Below, in pieces: positions 21,440 through 33,719 of a stretch of DNA of 64,000 nt (positions within the stretch are counted from its first letter, which is position 1; every line of letters begins with the position of its first letter). This DNA is from Solicola gregarius (lineage in GTDB: Bacteria > Actinomycetota > Actinomycetes > Propionibacteriales > Nocardioidaceae): assembly GCF_025790165.1 (NCBI RefSeq), contig NZ_CP094970.1, positions 1,178,001-1,242,000 on the forward strand. The letters run 5' to 3'. The translations under genes were made by a program, and so were the position numbers. Below the pieces are notes generated by a model. The model was not told the origin of the DNA. It did not search any database and saw only the letters and a list, made by a program, of their open reading frames with translations.

Positions 21440-22336
21440 TCAGCCGGCGTCGGCTTCGACGATCCGCTCGAGCGTACGTCTGCCCCAGCGGCTCATCGGC
21501 GGGTTCGACGCACGGTAGTACCAAACCAGCCCCATCGCCTGCTGGAACGCCCACGCCATCCCGCGCCGCCACTGCACCTCGCCACCTCCGAGAGACGCGT
21601 GGAAGACCTGGCGCCGGGGTGCGTCCAGCAGATGCCAGGCCGCGACCAGGTCGAGCGCCGGGTCGGCCGGGCCGAACCCTCCTCCGTCAAGTACGCCGGT
21701 GAGGCGACCGTCGCGCACGAGCAGGTTGGGTGGGATCAGGTCGCCGTGACACATGGTGTCGGCGTCGACCTCGGGGAGCGTACGCAGCTCGGCCCAGATC
21801 GCGCGCAGACGCGGTACGTCGAGCAGACTCTCGCTGCGCCGGAAGCAGGTCTCCATCCAGTCATCGTGATCGGGAAGGTGGCCGCCGCGACCATCGCCGA
21901 CGAACGTCCGCCCTCGGGTGGCGACGGTACGAAGACGCGCGATGAACGCGGCGAGGTCTTCCGCGAACTCCGGCGACGCCGCCGGGTCGTCGATCGTCGC
22001 GATGGTTCCCGGTAGCCACGTCTGCACGCTCCACGGCAGCGGATAGCCATCACCGGGCTCGCCGATCGCAACGGGCTCCGTTACCGGAACGGTCGCGTGG
22101 TCGGCGAGCTCCCTTGCGGCAGTCGCCTCGGCCTCGAGCGACGCACGGACCTCACCCGGATCCACGCCCTGCAACGGGAAACGGGCCGCCACCTCGTCGC
22201 CGACGCGGAAGATCGCGTTGACGGTGCCGCCCGCGACCGCTCGTACGGGAAGCCCCCGCCACTGCGGGAACTGGTCGTCGACCAGGCGACGGACGGTTCG
22301 GCCGTCGATCTCGCGCTGCCCTTCGTGCATGACCAT
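21440..22336 (-). CDS. aminoglycoside phosphotransferase (APH)-family kinase
   Basis: 298-residue eukaryotic-kinase-like enzyme of the APH family. The Brenner motif is MCHGDLIPPNLLV (catalytic D with N further on), and the DFG-equivalent region is GVLDGGGFGPADPALDL. The nucleotide loop is AGGTVNAIFRVGDEVAARFPL. ATG 22336 is used, with 22330 as alternative. The usual aspartate-tryptophan pair after the hinge is replaced by DGGG, still with the metal-binding aspartate. Substrates in this family range from aminoglycosides and macrolides to sugars; resistance should not be assumed. It follows the racemase convergently and stands alone. Confidence 0.83.
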   Translation of the reverse strand: MVMHEGQREIDGRTVRRLVDDQFPQWRGLPVRAVAGGTVNAIFRVGDEVAARFPLQGVDPGEVRASLEAEATAARELADHATVPVTEPVAIGEPGDGYPLPWSVQTWLPGTIATIDDPAASPEFAEDLAAFIARLRTVATRGRTFVGDGRGGHLPDHDDWMETCFRRSESLLDVPRLRAIWAELRTLPEVDADTMCHGDLIPPNLLVRDGRLTGVLDGGGFGPADPALDLVAAWHLLDAPRRQVFHASLGGGEVQWRRGMAWAFQQAMGLVWYYRASNPPMSRWGRRTLERIVEADAG

Positions 22337-22414: not shown

Positions 22415-22786
22415 TCAAGACTCGTTGTGAAACCGCCGATGAAGGACCATCAACTCTCCGTGCAACTCTACGAAGTCCGCCAGAGTCAGCGCCGCAGCAA
22501 GTTCGTCCAATCGGCGGCCGAACAACTCGATCAGAGCGGCGTTCGACGTATTGCCAGTCATGACGAGCAGCAGCCTCCGCGGGCTCCCGGTTGCAGCGTG
22601 GGAGTAGCGGAAATCGGCGTCCTTCGTCACAACGACGGCGTCGTCTGTGTCTGCGTGCGCTGCGATCTCAGCGTCCAAGGCAGTGACACCGGTCGGAAGA
22701 TCGGCGACATGCTGCCCCTCATGCCCGGCCGCATCGAGAAACCGGGCGAGGCGCGGCGGCAGCTGCGCGTCGACGATGAACCGCAC
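22415..22786 (-). CDS. DUF5615 PIN-like protein (probable toxin)
   Basis: 123 residues with a PIN-like fold seen as MRFIVDAQLPPRLARFL at the N-terminus, DAEIAAHADTDDAVVVTKDADF in the middle (acidic positions of the nuclease centre) and LLLVMTGNTSNAAL. This is the DUF5615 pattern, the usual partner of DUF433 proteins in type II toxin-antitoxin operons. GTG 22786 starts seven bases after the DUF433 stop. By family it is a predicted RNase; no experimental activity can be inferred from sequence. Confidence 0.85.
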   Translation of the reverse strand: MRFIVDAQLPPRLARFLDAAGHEGQHVADLPTGVTALDAEIAAHADTDDAVVVTKDADFRYSHAATGSPRRLLLVMTGNTSNAALIELFGRRLDELAAALTLADFVELHGELMVLHRRFHNES

Positions 22787-23209: not shown

Positions 23210-23632
23210 ATGAAGTACATGCTGATCATGCGCGCCAACGACGAGACATTCGCCGCGTACCAGGATGTCGACTTCGGCGAGATCGTGGAGTCGATGGGCA
23301 GGTTCAACGACGAGATGATCCAGGCGGGCGTACTGCTGGCGGCCGAGGGGCTCGACCCCGACCCCTCGTCCGGCGTGGTCGTCGACTACTCATCCGAGCC
23401 CCCCGTCGTCACCGACGGGCCGTACGGCGAGACGAAGGAGCTGTTCGCCGGCTTCTGGATCATCGACGTCACCTCCCGGGAGGAGGCCGTCGAGTGGGCC
23501 AAGCGGGCACCCTTGGCAGGCCCCGGGAGCAAGGCAGAGATCCGGCGCGTCACCTCGATCGACGAGCTCCCGCAGGACAACCCGTGGATCGCGAAGGAAC
23601 GCGCCTGGCGCGAAGCCACCGGCCAGCTCTGA
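23210..23632 (+). CDS. YCII-related DGPF-domain protein
   Basis: 140 residues beginning MKYMLIMRANDETF, with the DGPF motif in VVTDGPYGETKELFAGFWII and the conserved EEAVEWAKRAP. DGPF proteins are dimeric alpha/beta-barrel proteins of unknown biochemical role. They are the hallmark partner of ECF42-type sigma factors, encoded next to and usually controlled by them. Here the sigma factor starts 15 bases downstream on the same strand, so the pair is an operon. Confidence 0.9.
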   Translation: MKYMLIMRANDETFAAYQDVDFGEIVESMGRFNDEMIQAGVLLAAEGLDPDPSSGVVVDYSSEPPVVTDGPYGETKELFAGFWIIDVTSREEAVEWAKRAPLAGPGSKAEIRRVTSIDELPQDNPWIAKERAWREATGQL

Positions 23633-23647
23633 ACCGGACGGTGACCG

Positions 23648-24934
23648 ATGGCAGACCCGACCGGGCGTGACGCCGTCGCGGCGGTCTGGCGGATCGAGTC
23701 GGCGCGGATCGTCGGTGCGCTCGCACGCTACACCGGCGACTTCGCGCTGGCCGAGGACGTCGCGCAGGAGGCGCTCGCCGAGGCGCTCGTGAACTGGCCG
23801 CGCGACGGCGTGCCCGGCAGCCCTGTCGGATGGTTGCTCAGCGTCGGCCGACGCCGGGCGATCGACACGTTCCGACGGCGCTCCGCGCTCGACGAGAGGT
23901 ACGCCGCCTTCGCTCACGACCTGGGAGAGGGCGGCGCCGCCTCGGGCGGTGCACCCGCGGATCAGATCAGCGACGCCGAGGACGTGCCGTGGGATCCGGA
24001 CCGGATCGACGACGACGTCCTCGCGTTGACGTTCATCGCCTGCCACCCCGTCCTGTCCCGGGAGGCCAGGGTGGCGCTGACCCTTCGGGTGGTCGGCGGC
24101 CTGACGAGCGACGAGATCGCGAGGGCGTTCCTCGTGCCGACGGCGACCGTGCAAGCCCGCATCACGCGAGCGAAGAAGACGCTTGGCGCGGCGCACGTCC
24201 CGTTCGAGCTGCCACCCGCGTACGAGCGCCGCGAGCGACTCGGATCCGTGCTCAGCGTCGTCTACCTCATCTTCACCGAGGGGTCGTCGGCGAGCTCCGG
24301 TGAAGACCTGATCCGCCTCGACCTCGCGAGCGAGGCGCAACGCCTCGCTCGACTGCTCACCCGCCTGGTTCCGGACGATCCGGAGACGTACGGCCTGCTC
24401 GCGCTCCTCGAGCTGACCGCCGCTCGCTTCCCCGCCCGCACCGGTGCCGACGGCGAGCTCGTGCTGCTGGAGCACCAAGACCGCCGGCGGTGGGACCGCG
24501 CGGCGATCCGTCGAGGTCGAGCGGCGTTGGCCCGGGTCGAACGCGCGGGAAGAGGACTCGGCGCGTACGGTCTGCAGGCGGCGATCGCCGAGTGTCATGC
24601 CGTCGCACCGTCGGTCGACGCGACGAACTGGGAGCGGATCGTCCTCCTGTACGAGGCGCTCGGTCGACTCGCTCCGTCCCCGGTGGTCGATCTCAACCGA
24701 GCCGTCGCCGTCTCCATGGCCGAGGGACCGGCAGCTGCGCTGGCGATCGTCGACGAGCTCGCGGCGGCCGATGCGCTGCCGGGCTCACAGCTCCTGCCGG
24801 GAGTGCGCGGGGAGCTACTCGCCCGCCTGGGGCGTGTCGATGCCGCACGTACGGAGCTCGAACGAGCCATTCGCCTGTGCAGCAACGAACGTGAGCGCGC
24901 GGTGCTGGAGCGCAAGCGCGGCGAGCTCGGGTGA
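23648..24934 (+). CDS. ECF RNA polymerase sigma factor, ECF42 type with TPR-like C-terminal extension
   Basis: 428 residues. Sigma region 2 spans about 15-85 (ALARYTGDFALAEDVAQEALAEAL, then GWLLSVGRRRAIDTFRRR). Region 4 spans about 125-180 (LTLRVVGGLTSDEIARAFLVP, TATVQARITRAKKTL). The remaining 240 residues form an alpha-helical repeat extension (FTEGSSASSGEDLIRLDLASEA onwards, ending LLARLGRVDAARTELERAIR), which ECF42 proteins use in place of an anti-sigma factor for control. It would direct RNA polymerase to DGPF-gene promoters. It lies directly after the DGPF gene; no anti-sigma gene is nearby, consistent with the group. Confidence 0.92.
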   Translation: MADPTGRDAVAAVWRIESARIVGALARYTGDFALAEDVAQEALAEALVNWPRDGVPGSPVGWLLSVGRRRAIDTFRRRSALDERYAAFAHDLGEGGAASGGAPADQISDAEDVPWDPDRIDDDVLALTFIACHPVLSREARVALTLRVVGGLTSDEIARAFLVPTATVQARITRAKKTLGAAHVPFELPPAYERRERLGSVLSVVYLIFTEGSSASSGEDLIRLDLASEAQRLARLLTRLVPDDPETYGLLALLELTAARFPARTGADGELVLLEHQDRRRWDRAAIRRGRAALARVERAGRGLGAYGLQAAIAECHAVAPSVDATNWERIVLLYEALGRLAPSPVVDLNRAVAVSMAEGPAAALAIVDELAAADALPGSQLLPGVRGELLARLGRVDAARTELERAIRLCSNERERAVLERKRGELG

Positions 24935-24983: not shown

Positions 24984-25919
24984 ATGGAACAACGCGGGCA
25001 TCCCGAGAGTGACCCAGAGTTCCGACCTCTGGGATCCATCGACTTCGAACCGGCAACCTGCCCGGTCTGCGGCTTCGACGAGGTCGGCAGGCAGCTACGG
25101 AAGAAGTTCCAGGACATCGACCTGTGCTTCGGCGTCTGCGTACGGTGCGGCACGTTGTACGCGAACCCGCGCATGACCACCGACTCGCTGCACACGGTGT
25201 ACGACTCCGAGGAGTTCTTCGAGGGCCGGGAGAACAATCTCAACTACTACTCGTTCCTCAGCGGCGAACGCTATCTGCGCCGCACGGCGCGCGGACGCAT
25301 CGACCGCTTCCGCGACAAGGCACCAGGGCGCAACCTGCTGGAGGTCGCGTCGGCCGCCGGGTTCTTCCTCGCCGAGGCCAAGGAGAGCGGGTTCGATGCC
25401 GAGGGCGTCGAGATCTCGAAGCCGATGGCCAAGTACGCGTCGGATCGATGGGGCGTGCCCGTGCGAGCCGGATCGATCGAGGACGTCGAGCTGGAGGACG
25501 AGTCGTTCGATGTGATCGCCTCCTGGGGCGTCATGACCATCCTGCGCAACCCGGCGGCCGTGATGGCCAAGTTTCATGCCGCGTTGCGACCCGGCGGCGT
25601 CTGGGCGTTCAACACCTACGACTGCCGGTCGTTGTGGGGACGCCTGTTCGGCTCTCGCTGGTACATCCTGGTGCCCAACACCAGCCAGATCCACAATGAC
25701 CGCACGCTGCGCCGGCTCATCGACGAGGCCGGGTTCGACCTGGTGGCTCGACGGCGGGACCGTCCGTACGCGAGTGTCGAACGCCTCCTGTTCGTCCTGC
25801 TTTCCCACGTCAGTCACGGCGTACGCGACAAGTTCTTCGAGCGCGTGCACTTCCTCAACCGGCTGATCATCCCCGTTCGCGCCCCCGACACGTTCGAGTA
25901 CGTCTGTATCAAGCGCTAG
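24984..25919 (+). CDS. class I SAM-dependent methyltransferase with N-terminal zinc-ribbon-like segment
   Basis: 311 residues. The N-terminal part has paired cysteines (CPVCGF at about 25-30 and CVRCGTLYANPR at about 52-63), typical of sugar/lipid-associated methyltransferases with a small zinc module. The Rossmann core follows with NLLEVASAAGFFLAEAKESG (weak motif I), GVEISKPMAKYA (motif II), and SFDVIASWGVMTILRNP (post-motif). A later YILVPNTSQIHNDRTLRRLIDEAGF matches the methyltransferase-11/23 C-terminal pattern. ATG 24984 follows the sigma gene by 49 bases. It overlaps the convergent quiC gene by 11 bases. Substrate unknown. Confidence 0.8.
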   Translation: MEQRGHPESDPEFRPLGSIDFEPATCPVCGFDEVGRQLRKKFQDIDLCFGVCVRCGTLYANPRMTTDSLHTVYDSEEFFEGRENNLNYYSFLSGERYLRRTARGRIDRFRDKAPGRNLLEVASAAGFFLAEAKESGFDAEGVEISKPMAKYASDRWGVPVRAGSIEDVELEDESFDVIASWGVMTILRNPAAVMAKFHAALRPGGVWAFNTYDCRSLWGRLFGSRWYILVPNTSQIHNDRTLRRLIDEAGFDLVARRRDRPYASVERLLFVLLSHVSHGVRDKFFERVHFLNRLIIPVRAPDTFEYVCIKR

Positions 25920-27735
25920 TGGATCGCGGCGCCACCAACCGGTCGAGGCGCGCCTGTGCAGCGAGGCGGGTCGGAGCGCTGTCCGCGCCATAGCCGTCGT
26001 ACCCGTCGACGCGTTCGACCACCTCGAAGAAGACGCGTCCGATCCGGGGTGTGTAGAAGTGTCGGAACTCACCGCGATCGTCGCGGTCATAGAGCAGGTC
26101 GTTGCTCCGCAGGCGCTCCAGGACATCGTCGGCGAGGTCGAACCGCGCGCGTAGGTCGTCGTAGTAGTTGGCCGGAACGGGCAGCGGTCGGAGGCCACGC
26201 TCGCGCGCGTGCCGGGCGACCGCCGCCACGTCGTCGCACCGCAGCGCGACGTGCTCGGGGAAGCGCGTCTGTCCGGCCGGTGCGACATTCATCGGGATCC
26301 GTACGCTGCCGTTCGCATTGCTCATCACCTGGCTGCGCACCAGGCCTTGCGGTCCCGCGATCTCCGTCGCGCTCGGCGCCTCAAGGCCGAGGACGCTTGT
26401 ATAGAAGAGAACCGCCTCGTCGTGGGCCTCCCAGCTGTGCGCCAGATTGACGTGATCTACCGACGCGACGCCGCTGTCGCTCGCGACGTGGCCGTGTTCG
26501 AACTCCTCGGCCCAGAACGGCTCGGCGCCGCCCGCGGAGCGACCGTTGAGGAACACCTCGAGCCCGCTGGGGGCCACGAACCCGGAGAGCCGCTGCTCGC
26601 CCGCGTGCGTACGACGCGCGGCCGGTCGTACGGCCAGGTCTCGTGCGCGCTCGCTGGTCGCGGCGGCGTCGCGTACCTGGAACCCGACACCGGCGACGTG
26701 CGGCTCCAGGTCGCGGGCATGTTCCTCGTTGAGCACGATCCGCGCCTGGCCGGCCGACCAGAGGCGTACCGACTTGGTCCGATGCTTCCCCCGGAAGACG
26801 AGGCCGAGCTGGTCGAGCATGACCTCGACCCCGCTGGTGTCCTCGGCCTTGATCTCGACGTAGTCGAGGCCGGTCGGTACGTCGACGTCTGCGATCCGGC
26901 TCAGCGAATCGGTCGGGCCGAGGAGTCGGGCGGCTCGGTCCTCGAGCCAGACCAGCGAGCGCAGCGCGTGCTCTGCGGTCCGCCGCGTGTCGGTCTGTCT
27001 GAAGGTGTCGTTGAATACCTCGAGCGAGAGCGGGCCGTCGTACCCGGCCCGAGCGAGGTGCACGACGAACCGACCCAGGTCGAACGCGCCCTCGCCGGGG
27101 AAGAGCCGGTGGTGGCGGCTCCACGAGAGCACATCCATGCTGAGCGCCGGCGCGTCCGCGAGCTGGACGAAGAAGATCTTCTCGCCCGGGATGTCCTCGA
27201 TCGCAGCGGGGTCATGGCCCCGCGAGAGAATGTGGAAGCTGTCGAGGCACACCCCCACCGCTTCGTGGTCGACGCGCTCGACGATGCGCCAGGAGTGGCG
27301 ATAGTCGTCGACGTACGTGCCCCACGCCAATGCCTCGTACGCCACCCGGATCCCGTACGACGCCGCGAGATCGCCCAACCGATGCAGCTGGTCGGCCGAC
27401 ACCTGGTCGGAGTCGATGGTCGCCGTCCCGACGTTGCTGCAGACGAGAATGGTGTCCGCGCCCAGTCGCCGCATGACCTCGAAGCGCGTACGCGCCCGGC
27501 GCAGGTTGGCCTCGAGCAGGTCGGGCGTGACGCCCTCGAAGTCCCTGAAGGGTTGGTAGAGGTCGATGCTGAGGCCGAGCCGGTCGGCGAGAGCACGGAT
27601 CTCCTCTGGGCTGGAGTCGCTGACCACGAGGTCGGGCTCGAAGATCTCGACCCCGTCGAAGCCGGCCGCCGCGGCAGCGGTCAGCTTCTCCTCGAGGCTT
27701 CCGCTCAGGCACACCGTCGCGATCGAGCGTCGCAC
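25909..27735 (-). CDS. quiC: 3-dehydroshikimate dehydratase QuiC (TIM-barrel + HPPD-like VOC domain)
   Basis: 608-residue fusion. Residues 1-280 are a sugar-phosphate-isomerase-like TIM barrel with the metal ligands expected for bacterial 3-dehydroshikimate dehydratase: E134, D165, Q191 and E239, plus H168. Residues 285-600 are two vicinal-oxygen-chelate modules like 4-hydroxyphenylpyruvate dioxygenase, keeping the iron triad H428, H495 and E571 (FFEVVER). The family enzyme turns 3-dehydroshikimate into protocatechuate; the role of the dioxygenase-like half is unsettled. GTG 27735 starts 37 bases after aroE. It is the last gene of the TRAP/lactonase/dehydrogenase operon, which supports catabolism of shikimate- or quinate-type compounds. 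The 3' end overlaps a convergent methyltransferase. Confidence 0.92.
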   Translation of the reverse strand: MRRSIATVCLSGSLEEKLTAAAAAGFDGVEIFEPDLVVSDSSPEEIRALADRLGLSIDLYQPFRDFEGVTPDLLEANLRRARTRFEVMRRLGADTILVCSNVGTATIDSDQVSADQLHRLGDLAASYGIRVAYEALAWGTYVDDYRHSWRIVERVDHEAVGVCLDSFHILSRGHDPAAIEDIPGEKIFFVQLADAPALSMDVLSWSRHHRLFPGEGAFDLGRFVVHLARAGYDGPLSLEVFNDTFRQTDTRRTAEHALRSLVWLEDRAARLLGPTDSLSRIADVDVPTGLDYVEIKAEDTSGVEVMLDQLGLVFRGKHRTKSVRLWSAGQARIVLNEEHARDLEPHVAGVGFQVRDAAATSERARDLAVRPAARRTHAGEQRLSGFVAPSGLEVFLNGRSAGGAEPFWAEEFEHGHVASDSGVASVDHVNLAHSWEAHDEAVLFYTSVLGLEAPSATEIAGPQGLVRSQVMSNANGSVRIPMNVAPAGQTRFPEHVALRCDDVAAVARHARERGLRPLPVPANYYDDLRARFDLADDVLERLRSNDLLYDRDDRGEFRHFYTPRIGRVFFEVVERVDGYDGYGADSAPTRLAAQARLDRLVAPRSTSA

Positions 27736-27772
27736 CTCGATCTCCTTTCGGTCGGGTTCGTCCTTCGCCGGC

Positions 27773-28636
27773 TCAGTGCCCGGCGCGGTCGGCGGATGCG
27801 ATCAGCTCGTCGAAATGCGCGTGCATCCGCGCCGTGTTCGGTTCCCTGCCGGTGATCAGCCGCAGGCTGTCGACCGCCTGACCGACGGCCATCCCACCGC
27901 CGTCGAGGGTTGCGAGCCCTCGCGCGCGGGCTCGTCTGACCAGCTCGGTCTCCAGCGGGAAGTACACGACTTCCGCCACCCACGCGGACGGACGCAGGCG
28001 CTCGACGTCGATCGCGACGCCCGGGTGCTGTTTCATGCCGGTCGGCGTCACATGCACCACGCCGTCCGCGACCGGGAGCCACTCGTCGATTCGGCCTCCG
28101 CTGGTGACCAGACGTCCGCCGGACGCCTCGGCGAACCGCTGCACCATCGCCGAGGTGGCGTCCTCGTTGAGGTCATGGACGACGACGCGGTCGAGATCCA
28201 TGTCGACCAAGGAGGATGCGGTCGCCAGCCCGGCACCTCCCGCTCCGACCTGCACCACGGTCCCTCCGGCCGGGCGCCCGGCGAGGAAGAGCTCGAGGGC
28301 GGCACGAAATCCGGTGCAGTCGGTGTTGTGCGCCGTGCGCCTGCCTTCTCCGAGGAGCACCAGGTTGGCCGAGCCGACCCGGCGTACGACGTCGCTGCGT
28401 TCGTCGACGTACTCCAGCACCGCCAACTTGTACGGATGCGTCACGTTGGTCGCGACGAACCCTTCCGCTTCGAGCCGACTCAGCTCGGCGCCGAGGTCGA
28501 CGTCCGGCGAGTCGATCAGGTCGACGGTTCGGTACTCGTACTCGAGGCCGAGATGCTCGGCCTCCCGCATATGCATGGCGGGCGAGAGGGACGGCCCGAT
28601 CCCGTGACCGAGCAGTCCCACCTTGTAGCGCGTCAT
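27773..28636 (-). CDS. aroE: shikimate/quinate dehydrogenase (AroE family)
   Basis: 287 residues. The substrate-binding S-x-S motif is at S16/S18 in GPSLSPAMH. The catalytic lysine is K70 in NVTHPYK and the catalytic aspartate D106 in HNTDCTGF. The nucleotide-binding loop is QVGAGGAGLATASSL, and the adenosine-site residues in VVVHDLNE end with D-x-N rather than a basic NRT pattern, which favours NAD+ and a catabolic role. GGGMAVGQA is the C-terminal motif. Start ATG overlaps the lactonase stop by four bases. In an operon with a QuiC dehydratase it probably oxidises shikimate (or quinate) to the 3-dehydro compound rather than serving aromatic biosynthesis. Confidence 0.9.
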   Translation of the reverse strand: MTRYKVGLLGHGIGPSLSPAMHMREAEHLGLEYEYRTVDLIDSPDVDLGAELSRLEAEGFVATNVTHPYKLAVLEYVDERSDVVRRVGSANLVLLGEGRRTAHNTDCTGFRAALELFLAGRPAGGTVVQVGAGGAGLATASSLVDMDLDRVVVHDLNEDATSAMVQRFAEASGGRLVTSGGRIDEWLPVADGVVHVTPTGMKQHPGVAIDVERLRPSAWVAEVVYFPLETELVRRARARGLATLDGGGMAVGQAVDSLRLITGREPNTARMHAHFDELIASADRAGH

Positions 28637-29643
28637 CGGACCGCTCCGACGGGTGCGGCCGTCAGCAGCCGGCGTGGGTTGGCGATCATCATGGTCTCGA
28701 TCGCCGCGTCGTCGACTCCCTGATCTCGCAGCGTTGGTACGACGCGACGGCTCAGGTGGTCGGGCGTCCAGTGCGGTGCGTTCGTGCGCCGCCAGGAGGG
28801 AGGCGTGATCCGGCTGAAGTACGCGCTGTCGTGCGAGAGCACCAGCTGGCTCGCGTACCCCCGACGGACCAGCTCCGCGACCATCGCGATCCGGGTCGTG
28901 TCGTCGCCTGTGTGCGACATGCCGAAGCGGTCCATCCCGAGGGTGGCTCCGGTGTCGACGAGCTCGAGGACGTAGTCGAGGTCGGTGCTGTCGCCGCTGT
29001 GGCCGATGACCAGGTGCGATGCCGGTACGCCGCGCTCGAGGAAGAAGCGCGCCTGGTCGAGGCCGTTACGCAGCGCCGGGTTGCTGTGGGTCGTGACCGG
29101 CACCCCGGTCTCGTGGTGGACGGTCGCGGCCGCCTCCATCACCCGAACCACGTCCGGCGTGAGACCCGGTGCGTCGGTGACGGCCTTCAGTACGCCCGCG
29201 CGTACGCCGGTCTCACCGATCCCGTCGACGACGTCGCGCCGGAGGATCTCGACGAGCGGGTCCGGACCACCGACCAGGCGACCCGGACCGTGGGTGCGAA
29301 AGTACGGAGGCAGGACGTCGTCGGTGTACCAACCGGTCGCCGCGACGATGTTCACCCGCACCCGCCGTGCGACCCGGCCGACCAGCTCGGCACTACGCCC
29401 CAAGCCGGGCACGGTGAGGTCGACGACCGTTCGAACGCCGAGATCGAAGAGCTCCTCGAGCCCGCGTACGGCCGACGCCACCGCGGCGTCGGGATCCCAC
29501 TCGGGATGAGGGTGCTCTCGATCCAGCTCGGGGAACAGCACGAACAGGTGCTCGTGGGTGAGTGTCCACCCCAGGTCGGCGGCGTCCACCGACCCGCGGT
29601 AGGTAGGGACGGCGGCGCTGGGGTCGCCCCCAACGCCCGTCAC
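28633..29643 (-). CDS. phosphotriesterase-family metal-dependent hydrolase (probable lactonase)
   Basis: 336 residues in the phosphotriesterase (aryldialkylphosphatase) fold. Every metal ligand is visible: H30 and H32 in LTHEHLF, the carboxylated-lysine position K153 in VLKAVTD, H186 in TTHSN, H215 in IGHSGD, and D272 in LSHDSAYF. Most members hydrolyse lactones. The GTG start at 29643 overlaps the dctP stop (GTGA) and the stop overlaps aroE (ATGA), so it is embedded in the shikimate/quinate operon. A plausible role is opening a lactone form of the imported compound (for example a quinide or shikimate ester/lactone); this is inference from context. Confidence 0.87.
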   Translation of the reverse strand: MTGVGGDPSAAVPTYRGSVDAADLGWTLTHEHLFVLFPELDREHPHPEWDPDAAVASAVRGLEELFDLGVRTVVDLTVPGLGRSAELVGRVARRVRVNIVAATGWYTDDVLPPYFRTHGPGRLVGGPDPLVEILRRDVVDGIGETGVRAGVLKAVTDAPGLTPDVVRVMEAAATVHHETGVPVTTHSNPALRNGLDQARFFLERGVPASHLVIGHSGDSTDLDYVLELVDTGATLGMDRFGMSHTGDDTTRIAMVAELVRRGYASQLVLSHDSAYFSRITPPSWRRTNAPHWTPDHLSRRVVPTLRDQGVDDAAIETMMIANPRRLLTAAPVGAVR

Positions 29644-30644
29644 TGCGCCGAGTCCTTGATTGCCTCGTAGACCGCGAGCGAGTCACCCTTGAGGTTCTCG
29701 CGGAACCAGGCGTCGGTCTGGTCGGCGAACGCCTCCTGGTCGACGTCATCGACGATGTCGATCGCGTCCTCGCTCTCCCATTTGTCGAGGATCTCCTTCT
29801 CTGCCTTCTCGACGCACCCCGGCATCTGCTTCACGGCGGCGGCCACAGCGTCGTCGAGCGCGGACTGCTGCTCGCTCGTCAGATCGTCGTACGACGGCGC
29901 GGCCACGATCAGGTTCGAGTTCTGTGCATGGTCGGAGATGCTGAGATAGTCCTGCACCTCCACGAGGTTGCTGGCGTCGATGTTGGTCAGCGGATTCTCC
30001 TGACCGTCGACGACGCCCTGCTGCAGCGCGAGGTACAGCTCCTCGTACGCGACCTCGGTCGCATCCGCACCGAGTGCCTTGGCATTCAGCAGGAACTGCG
30101 GAGATCCGGGGAATCGCATCCGCAGCCCTTCGAGGTCCGCCGGCTCGCGGATCGGCTTGTTCGCGGTGAACTCGCGCGCACCGGCCGACCATGCGCCGAG
30201 GATCGAGACGTCGGAGGCGGCCTTGAAGTCCTTGCGGAGCTGGTCGGCCGCACCCTCCTCGAAGAACCTCTCCAGATGCGCGGCGTCGTCGAACGCGTAC
30301 GCCGCGTCGATCACGCCGACCGGGTCGTACACGGCCGCCAGCGCGGACGCGCCCTGGATGTCGATGTCGATGTCGCCGGACTGCACGGAGGCGATCCGGT
30401 CGGCGTCCTCGCCGAGCTGGCTGGCGGGGTAGATCTCTACCGACACCCCGACATCGGCGGCCTCGACCTCGTCCTTGATCACCTCAGCGCCACAGGTGTG
30501 CTGTGGCTGGTCCTCGGTGTAGCTGTGGGCGAGGGTCAGCTCGACGTCGCCTCCGCCGGACGAGTCGTCGCCGCCACAGGCGGCCAGCGCCAACGGGACA
30601 CTCAGGGCTGCGACGAGCGCGAGCCTCTCACGGTTGGTCTTCAT
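29640..30644 (-). CDS. dctP: TRAP transporter substrate-binding lipoprotein DctP
   Basis: 334 residues with a lipoprotein signal (LALAACGGDDSS). DctP-family features are LAHSYTEDQPQH at the start of the mature part, EIYPASQLGEDADRIASVQSG, and the carboxylate-binding arginine in LEGLRMRFPGSPQF, followed by LALQQGVVDGQENPLTNI. It binds an organic acid outside the cell and delivers it to DctQM, driven by a sodium gradient. Operon position argues for a cyclic polyhydroxy acid such as shikimate or quinate. ATG 30644 has GGAAAG upstream. There is a 76-base gap to dctM. Confidence 0.92.
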   Translation of the reverse strand: MKTNRERLALVAALSVPLALAACGGDDSSGGGDVELTLAHSYTEDQPQHTCGAEVIKDEVEAADVGVSVEIYPASQLGEDADRIASVQSGDIDIDIQGASALAAVYDPVGVIDAAYAFDDAAHLERFFEEGAADQLRKDFKAASDVSILGAWSAGAREFTANKPIREPADLEGLRMRFPGSPQFLLNAKALGADATEVAYEELYLALQQGVVDGQENPLTNIDASNLVEVQDYLSISDHAQNSNLIVAAPSYDDLTSEQQSALDDAVAAAVKQMPGCVEKAEKEILDKWESEDAIDIVDDVDQEAFADQTDAWFRENLKGDSLAVYEAIKDSAQ

Positions 30645-30720
30645 CGGACTTCCTTTCCTGGGCCGCCGGATGGGACCGGTAGCCCGCACTTCACTGATGG
30701 GGTAGGGGCAATCCCGAGGT

Positions 30721-31995
30721 TCATAGGCCGAGCCGATCCGGCAACCACGTCACGTAGCCCGGAAACGCGATGACTGTCAGACAGACGACGACGAGCGGTA
30801 CGAGGAACGGAAGCGTGCCCCGGAATACCTCTCCCACCGGGACCTTCTGCGTCGAGCTGAGTACGTAGAGCACCGTGCCGACCGGTGGCGTGAGCAGCCC
30901 GATCATCAGCGAGATGATCATCAGCACGCCGAGCACGATGGGGTCGACGCCGAGCTGCATGCTGATCGGCATCAGGATCGGCACCACCAGGACGAGCGTC
31001 GCGGTGGCGTCGATGACCGTGCCCAGGAGCAGCATCAGGACGGCGACCAGCAACAGGAACACCGTGCCGTCGTCGGTGAGCCCCAGCACGAACTCGGCGA
31101 GATCCTGCGGCACCCGCTCGCGCGCGAGCACGTACCCGAGCAATGCCGCGGAGGACACGATCAGCATGATCGCCGCGGTCGTCATCACCGTCTCCGAGAA
31201 GATCCGCGCCAGCATGCGTACGTGGAGTGCGCGGTACGCGAAGCCGAGCACGAACATGTACAGCGCGCCTACGGCCGCCGCCTCGGTCGGGGTGAAATAG
31301 CCGGCGAGGATGCCGCCCAGGATGATCACCGGCGCACCGAGCGGGAGGATCACCCGCCGGCCGGTATGAGCGACCCGCGCCCAGGAGAACCCGATGTGTT
31401 GGATGTCGGCCTGGCGGCGCACCAGGAGGAAGACCGTGATGCAGAGCCCGATCGCCATCAGGATTGCGGGGATCACCGACGCGGCGAACAGCGCCCCGGT
31501 CGACACGGCCGCCTGCCCCGCGAAGATGACGGCGGGGATGCTCGGCGGCATCACGGGTGCGATCAGCGCGGAAGCGCCGACGACGCCGAGACCGAACCGG
31601 CGCGAATAACCGTTGCGGGCCATGGCCGGAATCTCCACCTTGCTCAGCGCGGCAGCATCGGCGACCGCAGACCCGCTCATCCAGGAGAACCCCAGGCTGA
31701 CGCCGACACTGACGTACCCGAGACCCCCGCGGACCCTGCCGAACAGCGCGAGTGCGAAGTCGAAGAGGCGGTCGGCGATACCGGCGTGGTTCGCCACCAC
31801 GCCGAGCAGTACGAACAACGGGACGGCGAGGAGCGGGAAGCTCGCGGTGGAGTCGGCGATCAGCCGCATGGCGAGGCCGAGCGACTGGTCGGTCAACAAC
31901 AGGTACGCCAGGCCGGGCCCGAGGAACGCGAAGGCGACGGGAACGCGCAGTATCAACAGCGCGATGATGGCGAGCAGCAGCAGCGTGACGGTCAC
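30721..31995 (-). CDS. dctM: TRAP transporter large permease DctM
   Basis: 424 residues, about twelve hydrophobic spans. Typical DctM motifs are RVPVAFAFLGPGLAYLL near the start, SWMSGSAVADAAALSKVEIP and APVMPPSIPAVIFAG (the proline-rich reentrant loop), and LGTVIDATATLVLVVPILMP. It forms the translocation path with DctQ. GTG 31995 overlaps the dctQ stop (GTGA), so the two subunits are made together. Confidence 0.93.
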   Translation of the reverse strand: MTVTLLLLAIIALLILRVPVAFAFLGPGLAYLLLTDQSLGLAMRLIADSTASFPLLAVPLFVLLGVVANHAGIADRLFDFALALFGRVRGGLGYVSVGVSLGFSWMSGSAVADAAALSKVEIPAMARNGYSRRFGLGVVGASALIAPVMPPSIPAVIFAGQAAVSTGALFAASVIPAILMAIGLCITVFLLVRRQADIQHIGFSWARVAHTGRRVILPLGAPVIILGGILAGYFTPTEAAAVGALYMFVLGFAYRALHVRMLARIFSETVMTTAAIMLIVSSAALLGYVLARERVPQDLAEFVLGLTDDGTVFLLLVAVLMLLLGTVIDATATLVLVVPILMPISMQLGVDPIVLGVLMIISLMIGLLTPPVGTVLYVLSSTQKVPVGEVFRGTLPFLVPLVVVCLTVIAFPGYVTWLPDRLGL

Positions 31996-32582
31996 GGCCT
32001 TGCCTCGCCTTCGACCCGGCCGTCGAGGTCGACGGGCCCGTTGACCTGGATGTCGAGCTCGTCCGACCCGCTCGATGCGGGCACGCCGTACCGCGCCACG
32101 AGGGCCGCACCGACGGCCGCCCGGACCGCCGTACTGGCGAATCCGATCATGGGGATCACGTACACCCACGACATCGGGAGTCCGAGCGACGGTGAGGAGA
32201 GGTTCTTCGACTCCTCCACGAGGCTCTCGCACGCCCAGGCGAACCCGGCGCCGATGACGGTGACCAGTACCAGCGCGAGCACGTGCAGGGCGCGAACCAC
32301 CAGCTCGTTCGGGATGTTGTCGACGAGTTGCAGGGCAATGTGCCCGTCGCGGGTGACGAGGACGCCGGCGGCGGCGAACGTCAGCCAGACCAGGCCGAAC
32401 TGGGAGAGCTCGGCGGTCCAGGTGAAGCTGTCGATCGGCAGGTAGCGTTGGGCGGCCTGCAACAACACCAGTACGAAGATGAGCGCGAGCGCAAGACACG
32501 CAACGCCCATCTCGACTGCCGTCAAGATCCGTATCAGGCGCGCAAGCGGCGAGCGCCGCGTACGAACGGGGACTGCGGACAC
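31992..32582 (-). CDS. dctQ: TRAP transporter small permease DctQ
   Basis: 196 residues with four membrane segments. The signature W-x-E-E-like region appears as IDSFTWTAELSQFGLVWLTFAAAG, followed by DGHIALQLVDNIP. The start GTG 32582 has GGAG nine bases upstream; the longer in-frame reading begins with cysteine-rich sequence that looks non-coding. It is the first gene of the six-gene minus-strand operon dctQ-dctM-dctP-lactonase-aroE-quiC and is divergent from the LacI-type regulator. Confidence 0.9.
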   Translation of the reverse strand: MSAVPVRTRRSPLARLIRILTAVEMGVACLALALIFVLVLLQAAQRYLPIDSFTWTAELSQFGLVWLTFAAAGVLVTRDGHIALQLVDNIPNELVVRALHVLALVLVTVIGAGFAWACESLVEESKNLSSPSLGLPMSWVYVIPMIGFASTAVRAAVGAALVARYGVPASSGSDELDIQVNGPVDLDGRVEGEARP

Positions 32583-32666
32583 GGTGGGCACTCCTTCGCC
32601 GCCGGCGCACCCGGCGGTGTGGTCGCTGTCACAGGTTCCGCACACTAGGAACGCCCGTGCAACCGC

Positions 32667-32700
32667 GGCAAGTAGTTGCCAAAGTTGCCACTTTCGTGGC
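32667..32700. promoter_or_regulatory. candidate LacI-type operator region
   Basis: Between dctQ and the divergent LacI gene there is a group of short symmetric elements: GGCAA-GTAG-TTGCC (32667-32680) and AAAGT-TGCC-ACTTT (32681-32694), with GTTGCCA repeated at 32675-32681 and 32684-32690. This is the only symmetric sequence in the 129-base gap and is well placed to control both directions. Confidence 0.5.
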
Positions 32701-32711
32701 TACATGACGGC

Positions 32712-33719
32712 GTGGAGCAGCCGACGATCTACGACGTGGCCCGACGAGCGGGTGTCGCCGCGTCCACCGTTTCGCGCGCGTTCAGCAAGCCGGGTCGGGT
32801 CAGCGAACCCACCCGGAAACGGGTGCTCGATGCCGCCGGCGAGCTCGGGTACGTACCGGACCCGCGGGCGCGGCCGGTGTCGCGTTCGCAGCATCGGACC
32901 GTCGCGATGGTGCTCTCGGACATCACCAACCCGCACTTCTTCGAGCTCATCCGTGGCGCGGAGCAGCGAGCCAAGGCCGCCGAGACGACACTTGTCATCG
33001 TCAACGCCGAGGAGTCGCCGCGGATCGAACTGGACCAGGTCAACGGGCTCGCACCAACGGTCGACGGGTTCGTACTGGCATCGAGCCGACTGCATGACCA
33101 CGAGCTACGCGACCTGGCAGAGCGGCACCGCATCGTGTTGCTGAACCGGGAGCTTCCCGGATTGGCCAGCGTCGCTCTCGACACTGCTGCCGGGTGCCGC
33201 CAGATCCTTGAGCACTTCGCCTCCTTCGGGCATGCGGGGTTCACGTACTGCGCCGGACCGCCCGGCTCGTGGATGGGCGCCACGCGCTGGGCCGCACTGA
33301 GCGCCGGCGCCGAGGAGTACGGGCTCGCCGCCCGGCGGATCGGCCCGTACACGCCGACCGTTGCGAACGGCGGCGCCGCGGCCGACGGGGCCCTGCGCGC
33401 CGACACAACGGCGCTGGTCGCGCACAACGACCTCCTCGCCATCGGCGTGCTGCGACGCCTCGCCCAGCGTGGTGTGCGGGTGCCCGACGACATCAGCGTC
33501 GTCGGCTTCGACGACATCTTCGCGGCCGAGTTCGTACAGCCGACACTGACGACGCTCGGTGGTCCCGGAGCGCACGCCGGCCGGCTGGCGATCGAGCTGC
33601 TGCTGGACCAGTTCGCCGGTCGTACTCCTCGAGGGGAGACGGGCGGATCGCTGCACCAGATCCGGCTGCCGACCGGTCTCGTGCTGCGGGAGTCCTCCGG
33701 TGTCGCGCCGGAGCGTTAG
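32712..33719 (+). CDS. LacI-family transcriptional regulator
   Basis: 335 residues. The N-terminal helix-turn-helix is textbook: TIYDVARRAGVAASTVSRAFSKPGRVSEPTRKRVLDAA with hinge GYVPDPRAR. The periplasmic-binding-protein-like domain follows (VAMVLSDITNPHFFELIRGAE, then AHNDLLAIGVLRRL and VPDDISVVGFDDI). GTG 32712 is chosen because the helix-turn-helix begins at once; the in-frame upstream codons belong to the intergenic operator region. It is divergent from the TRAP/quinate operon, which it most likely controls in response to a pathway compound. A strong hairpin follows its stop. Confidence 0.92.
   Translation: MEQPTIYDVARRAGVAASTVSRAFSKPGRVSEPTRKRVLDAAGELGYVPDPRARPVSRSQHRTVAMVLSDITNPHFFELIRGAEQRAKAAETTLVIVNAEESPRIELDQVNGLAPTVDGFVLASSRLHDHELRDLAERHRIVLLNRELPGLASVALDTAAGCRQILEHFASFGHAGFTYCAGPPGSWMGATRWAALSAGAEEYGLAARRIGPYTPTVANGGAAADGALRADTTALVAHNDLLAIGVLRRLAQRGVRVPDDISVVGFDDIFAAEFVQPTLTTLGGPGAHAGRLAIELLLDQFAGRTPRGETGGSLHQIRLPTGLVLRESSGVAPER

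Follow-up and report, generated by a model that had tools for sequence, protein, structure and literature searches.

The window analysed here is a 64,000-nucleotide stretch of Solicola gregarius DNA (contig NZ_CP094970.1, positions 1,178,001 to 1,242,000), and positions below are counted from its first letter. At 25909-33719 it carries seven genes that Pfam and NCBIfam matches resolve into one divergent unit: a LacI-family regulator, the three components of a TRAP importer (DctQ, DctM, DctP), a hydrolase of the phosphotriesterase (PTE) family, an AroE-family dehydrogenase and the dehydratase QuiC. The hydrolase is the main subject of this study. The parts of the unit are as follows.

32712-33719, plus strand: LacI-family regulator (PF00356, E 6.9e-17; PF13377); the frame is open from TTG 32676
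32666-32681: candidate LacI operator, read on the minus strand as TGGCAACTACTTGCCG, with 1 mismatch to TGGCAAnnnnTTGCCA
31992-32645, minus strand: DctQ, TRAP small permease (PF04290, E 1.9e-19); the true start may be further in
30721-31995, minus strand: DctM, TRAP large permease (PF06808, E 3.7e-104; TIGR00786)
29640-30644, minus strand: DctP, TRAP solute-binding protein (PF03480, E 3.4e-62), with conserved R157, R177 and N217
28633-29643, minus strand: PTE-family hydrolase, lactonase-like (PF02126, E 2.7e-77), with the loop 8 motif FSRITPPSWR
27773-28636, minus strand: AroE-family quinate/shikimate dehydrogenase (PF08501; NF009201, 302.8 bits against a cut-off of 235)
25909-27735, minus strand: QuiC, two-domain protein with a 3-dehydroshikimate dehydratase and a half resembling 4-hydroxyphenylpyruvate dioxygenase (HPPD) (NF042435, E 3.8e-162)

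An original prediction, made from the letters of this DNA, had named the same seven genes, families and location, and our searches bear it out. It had also read them as a shikimate/quinate catabolic set with a TRAP importer, which the gene content supports, AroE and QuiC being adjacent. Its description of the unit as tightly overlapping holds at three of the five junctions (DctQ/DctM, DctP/PTE and PTE/AroE, 4 bases each) and fails at the other two, where gaps of 76 bases (DctM-DctP) and 37 bases (AroE-QuiC) are found. DctM most likely starts at GTG 31995, overlapping the DctQ stop.

The gene order was followed in two sets of genomes. In a class-wide sample of 296 genomes searched with the PTE, five relatives stood out at 55-73% identity, followed by a drop to 50% and below, and all five adjoin DctP and AroE-type genes. 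QuiC lies in the same 20-kb stretch in four of them, directly after the PTE in L035, L036 and L037 and upstream of DctQ in L038; in the fifth (G271, locus L034) AroE is followed by a type II dehydroquinase, with QuiC about 20 kb further on. Overall, 35 of the 296 genomes have QuiC, as against 6 of the 6 that carry the operon-type PTE, a co-occurrence with a hypergeometric probability of 1.8e-6, or 1.5e-5 minus the S. gregarius genome itself, kinship among genomes being ignored in both figures. None of the 24 lower-identity PTE matches examined with 1.5-kb flanks, out of 52, has DctP or AroE-type neighbours.

A second scan, run with an alignment of six orthologs, returned 62 loci. Five were PPH-like and were set aside, and the operon neighbours are absent within 1.5 kb of them; the 57 operon-type loci were kept. 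This split was drawn after identity and neighbours had been seen, and the PTE tree agrees with it for the rows it holds. The 57 loci, 4 of which come from genomes also in the class sample, belong to Aeromicrobium, Nocardioides, Pseudonocardia, Modestobacter, Microbacterium, Cellulomonas, Demequina, Jiangella, Mumia, Arthrobacter, Brevibacterium and others, with some metagenome-assembled genomes (MAGs) among them. DctP lies within 1.5 kb of the PTE in all 57 and DctM within 5 kb in 56, AroE is found within 3 kb in 51, and the loci also hold AroQ (15), PcaB (8), LacI (31) and a TetR regulator (24). The original prediction had staked itself on the lactonase gene being conserved beside quiC in other genomes, and QuiC was found in 43 of the 57 loci and elsewhere in 8 of the 14 genomes that lack it there, which brings the total to 51 of 57 and leaves the prediction unrefuted on this count. 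In two Arthrobacter the distant QuiC is paired with its own AroE, and the L087 genome has it on a different contig, next to DctQ and DctM. The PTE is thus linked most closely to the transporter, which argues that the enzyme acts on the imported solute.

The regulator shares in this conservation. LacI orthologs 57-74% identical to that of the window occupy the same divergent position, and the site TGGCAAnnnnTTGCCA is present with at most two mismatches in all 32 LacI/DctQ divergent regions and with at most one in 26, against a mean of 0.13 in shuffles; as the pattern was chosen post hoc from palindromes in these same regions, the 32 of 32 is descriptive and the single-base shuffles serve as its yardstick. 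When one mismatch is allowed, the pattern has 8 hits in the genome, which does not exceed the 11 of its reversed control, and a second exact operator match falls inside a called open reading frame and is taken as chance. Its distance to the codons for the DNA-binding domain of LacI is 32-54 bases. We regard 32666-32681 as a putative LacI operator, and because this conserved operator-like site is there, the regulator most likely starts at GTG 32712 rather than at TTG 32676.

By sequence and by structure, the closest PDB entry to the PTE is 4if2, a Mycobacterium tuberculosis homologue. The AlphaFold model of the enzyme (mean predicted local distance difference test score, pLDDT, 94.0) matches it at Z 48.6, with a root-mean-square deviation of 1.4 over 323 residues. 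The metal ligands H30, H32, K153, H186, H215 and D272 are invariant in 52 of 52 operon-group members, so that the original prediction's view of an enzyme that keeps every ligand extends to the whole group; they are also invariant in the PPH-like PTEs except for K153 (27 of 28). Y106 and R239 are fixed in both groups (52 of 52 and 28 of 28). A hand count on the sequence-to-PDB alignment equates them with Y97 and R223 of SsoPox, whose equivalents we take to be a signature of phosphotriesterase-like lactonases (PLLs). The window enzyme is therefore like the PLL group (PPH 4if2, SsoPox and VmoLac) in fold (Z 48.6 and 46.0), metal ligands and these two residues. It is unlike that group in sitting in a catabolic operon and in forming a clade apart: in a tree of 86 rows, a 100/100 branch splits the 58 operon-type PTEs (six exceptional loci included) from the 28 PPH-like actinobacterial rows. 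Neither this tree nor the residue alignment includes L095, L099 or repeat loci.

The difference is most evident in loop 8, where the operon group has the signature FSR[VI]TPPSWR. R285, W284, S277, T280 and D248 are present in 52 of the 52 members, H244 in 51 and R278 in 49, and position 278 is Asp in all 28 PPH-like PTEs. A hand count on the alignment places R278 next to SsoPox residue 263, also in loop 8. According to the available part of PMC3781021, loop 8 of SsoPox forms a hydrophobic channel in which W263 positions the lactone ring; sequence comparison puts R278, W284 and R285 of the window enzyme where that channel lies. Conserved arginines in this part of the sequence make it probable that the substrate of the PTE is anionic, and they suggest a carboxylate on it.

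Two other assignments were tried for the PTE and rejected. The NCBIfam organophosphate hydrolase model gives 139.4 bits against a cut-off of 500, and the phospho-furanose lactonase model 61.4 bits against 630. A second PTE-family gene is present in the genome (G000:C1:3311401-3312297), its product 34% identical to the operon PTE.

The importer points to the same kind of compound. DctP keeps R157, R177 and N217 in 26 of 26 aligned proteins, with the spacing of R127, R147 and N187 in SiaP; in the part of PMC3454389 available, these SiaP residues bind carboxylate and the triad is also reported for SMb20036 of Sinorhizobium meliloti. Since DctP retains the Arg/Arg/Asn triad of carboxylate-binding TRAP proteins, the solute it imports should bear a free carboxylate. 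This triad and the loop-8 arginines of the PTE lead us to favour an acyl ester or other anionic conjugate over a neutral lactone. The original prediction had suggested a lactone or ester of a cyclitol acid as the substrate. Its lactone version would make the PTE a lactonase proper, acting on quinide (quinic acid lactone) or on the lactone of shikimate, and the PLL-like fold and ligands, the invariant Y106 and R239 and a list of closest structures made up of the M. tuberculosis homologue and PLL lactonases are all in its favour. However, simple lactones of quinate and shikimate are neutral, which sits poorly with the carboxylate triad and the arginines, and in SsoPox the same loop 8 makes up a hydrophobic channel (PMC3781021, available part). 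We consider such a lactonase unlikely.

The remaining operon enzymes would account for the fate of the released acid. The best PDB match of AroE is 3jyo, named a quinate/shikimate dehydrogenase, and the protein is 46% identical to SMb20037 of S. meliloti. The S/T position of its SxS/T motif is Thr in 37 of 51 aligned operon AroE proteins and in SMb20037, and Ser in the window; we do not use it as evidence. QuiC matches NF042435 over residues 1-597 at 541 bits, which is under the model cut-off of 1200, and its best PDB match over the same residues is 5hmq (E 3.3e-138), a structure of QuiC1 (PMC7442255, available part). The dehydratase residues E134, D165, H168, Q191, S206 and E239 are present in all 42 aligned proteins, the window included. 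In the HPPD-like half, H428 is kept in 42 of 42 and H495 and E571 in 36 each, and the window has all three; the QuiC residues that the original prediction listed (E134, D165, Q191, E239, H428, H495, E571) are accordingly all in place.

Two side observations concern these enzymes. AroE comes in two types, about 40% identical, one in the window and L039-L043 and the other in most other loci. Both types resemble SMb20037 (46-47%) a little more than they resemble each other, and they differ in operon place, standing either after the PTE or between DctM and DctP, which looks like relocation or replacement. In six QuiC proteins, H495 has become Tyr and E571 Met, Val or Gln (L055, L059, L060, L061 and L068, Modestobacter; L089, Pseudonocardia humida). 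As two of the three metal ligands are lost, the HPPD-like half of these six is unlikely to be a working dioxygenase.

Beyond the operon, the genome has two intradiol dioxygenase matches (PcaH/G homologues) about 110 kb away, with PcaB, PcaD and PcaC homologues adjoining them and a PcaF homologue there on the other strand. L037, L042, L080, L083 and L085 have their pca genes after the operon. There is one AroQ, outside the operon, and a second AroE; this AroQ makes available the 3-dehydroquinate dehydratase needed for quinate but not for shikimate. On paper, then, the route from quinate or shikimate into the beta-ketoadipate pathway appears near-complete, and the PTE is the operon enzyme without an assigned step. 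A lactonase-like enzyme in a protocatechuate-forming operon might be thought to replace PcaD as the 3-oxoadipate enol-lactonase. Yet this genome (L118) encodes, next to PcaB and PcaC, a homologue of PcaD with 58% identity to the L037 protein, and relatives with pca genes after the operon also have PcaD. Because the genome has homologues of PcaH/G, B, D, C and F, we set this role aside as very improbable.

Related systems combine some of these parts. The source of 3jyo, the structure nearest to the window AroE, we take to be Corynebacterium glutamicum, whose quinate/shikimate transporter and regulator presumably belong to other families than those of the window. QsuB of C. glutamicum and QuiC1 of Pseudomonas putida (PMC7442255, available part) are two-domain dehydratases of the same kind as the window QuiC, and the window differs from both systems in having a TRAP importer and a PTE in the operon. 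The quiC locus on pRL11 of Rhizobium johnstonii (L109) likewise groups QuiC (42% identical) with a type II dehydroquinase and a shikimate dehydrogenase, but its importer genes are of the ABC type, with no TRAP annotated and no PTE match in 20 kb.

We propose a model, towards which we lean only slightly, of a LacI-controlled operon for plant cyclitol acids in which the PTE cleaves an imported conjugate of quinate or shikimate ahead of the AroE, QuiC and Pca steps, the activities being read from homology and gene order. DctQMP would import a carboxylate-bearing quinate or shikimate compound. The PTE would cleave this conjugated form at its binuclear metal centre, the bond being most likely that of an O-acyl ester or of another anionic ester or lactone, with the substrate carboxylate held by Arg 285 and mostly Arg 278 of loop 8. 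Once released, the quinate or shikimate would be oxidised by AroE, giving dehydroquinate or dehydroshikimate, which the single genomic AroQ, near the operon in some relatives, would link; QuiC would dehydrate dehydroshikimate to protocatechuate, and the Pca enzymes encoded about 110 kb away would degrade it further. The least certain element of this route is the substrate of the PTE. More tentatively, and at somewhat less than an even chance, the operon PTEs may be a carboxylate-reading PTE/PLL subfamily, undescribed so far and different from the AHL type, that catalyses the entry step of a TRAP-fed route, widespread in soil actinobacteria, for quinate or shikimate conjugated by acylation or lactonisation.

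Several observations weigh against this model, the first of which comes from S. meliloti. As reported in the available part of PMC3454389, SMb20034-SMb20037 comprise TRAP genes beside the AroE gene SMb20037, induced by quinate, and SMb20036 binds D-quinate with a dissociation constant of 5.9 nM (shikimate, about 0.1 mM). This system is like that of the window in its TRAP genes beside AroE (46% identical) and in its carboxylate triad; it differs in that no PTE or QuiC match was found in the 20 + 12.5 kb examined, and its quinate-binding protein is only about 30% identical to the window's DctP. By analogy, free quinate use appears to need no hydrolysis, because the quinate TRAP and AroE genes of S. 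meliloti show no PTE match in 32 kb. A quinate TRAP protein beside AroE is thus already known, and the PTE step is the new part; our search of the open-access literature, with subscription papers mostly outside it, found no phosphotriesterase paired with quinate or shikimate catabolism.

The absence of a PTE near the S. meliloti genes also lends weight to an alternative in which the TRAP system imports free quinate or shikimate and the PTE only removes a by-product or restores a metabolite that has become lactonised. The 4-base overlap of DctP and PTE speaks against this, as does the fact that the two stay together where AroE and QuiC have moved away, which again points to the imported solute. 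We consider a clearing or repair role quite unlikely.

DctP itself is a second source of doubt about the conjugate model. Its best sequence match in the PDB, 4pc9, is named only as a putative C4-dicarboxylate system protein, and its structural model (pLDDT 83.5) matches many TRAP proteins equally (Z 30.0-32.6), so the ligand is not told from it. The arginines of the PTE are also less exclusive than they first appear. R278 is replaced in 3 of 52 operon PTEs, by His in L045, L056 and L071, and position 285 is basic in 9 of the 28 PPH-like PTEs (Lys in 7, Arg in 2). As judged from the alignment, a basic residue at 285 alone is not special, and the distinctive feature is the fixed arginine pair.

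The gene contexts add to these points. QuiC is absent at E 1e-20 from six genomes, those of L045, L056, L071, L077, L079 (a MAG) and L090 (Blastococcus tunisiensis). In L045, L056 and L071, from Chloroflexi and Acidimicrobiia MAGs, the order is a CoA-transferase III, the PTE, a zinc alcohol dehydrogenase and then the TRAP genes; in L071 the upstream genes include those for a thiamine pyrophosphate (TPP) enzyme and an acylating aldehyde dehydrogenase, together with one for a TIM-barrel protein that shares 32% identity with a section of QuiC. In L077, DctQMP and the PTE are divergent from a cluster at L077:95-6585 for an acylating aldehyde dehydrogenase, a citryl-CoA lyase-like protein, a TPP enzyme, a TIM barrel that the QuiC model matches weakly (9.2e-5), AroE and TetR. 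These four MAG loci speak against a module devoted to quinate only, which may serve more compounds.

It is therefore worth considering that TRAP and PTE form a module that handles hydroxy-acid esters or lactones of anionic character in general, coupled in most actinobacteria to quinate/shikimate catabolism and in a few lineages to another pathway. The constancy of DctP beside the PTE (57 of 57), in contrast to AroE and QuiC, which may lie apart from it or be missing, is as such a module would have it, and so are the CoA-transferase III, alcohol dehydrogenase and TPP-enzyme contexts of the four MAG loci. On the other hand, QuiC is present in 51 of the 57 genomes, and the three CoA-transferase loci are those with His at 278, whose enzymes may have changed substrate. 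A general module seems to us somewhat unlikely.

Two further negative results bear on the conjugate model. PcaI and PcaJ were absent among the four further proteins scanned beside the genome's own pca genes, no genome-wide search having been made. The called proteins of the 57 loci and the window (L095 included) were also clustered, using a simple caller based on third-position G+C content (GC3) that left some frames wrong, and 21 clusters recurred in at least 4 loci; each was identified from the operon and pca queries that it overlapped and from the Pfam matches of one member. They comprise operon genes, antisense miscalls, pca genes, TetR (24 loci), two CoA-transferase subunits (7 and 7), IclR (5) and, in 4 loci each, a mechanosensitive-channel protein, a helix-turn-helix protein, a CinA protein and a protein that matched nothing in Pfam. 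No esterase genes, and none for esterase products such as those of hydroxycinnamate catabolism, are among these 21.

To our knowledge, the physiological substrates of many PTE and PLL enzymes are unsettled. Here gene order links a whole PTE clade, set apart by its active-site loop, to one importer and in most genomes to one pathway, which leaves a short substrate list. If the model is true, this lactonase group gains a defined catabolic role, and the operon illustrates how actinobacteria draw on quinate or shikimate conjugates from plants.

Outside the operon, the window holds at 23210-24934 a YCII-domain protein and, after it, a sigma-70-like protein carrying DUF6596, a pairing we take to be the one seen in extracytoplasmic function (ECF) sigma groups. 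A DUF5615/PIN-like protein, possibly the toxin of a toxin-antitoxin pair, is encoded at 22415-22786, and an APH-family phosphotransferase at 21440-22336.

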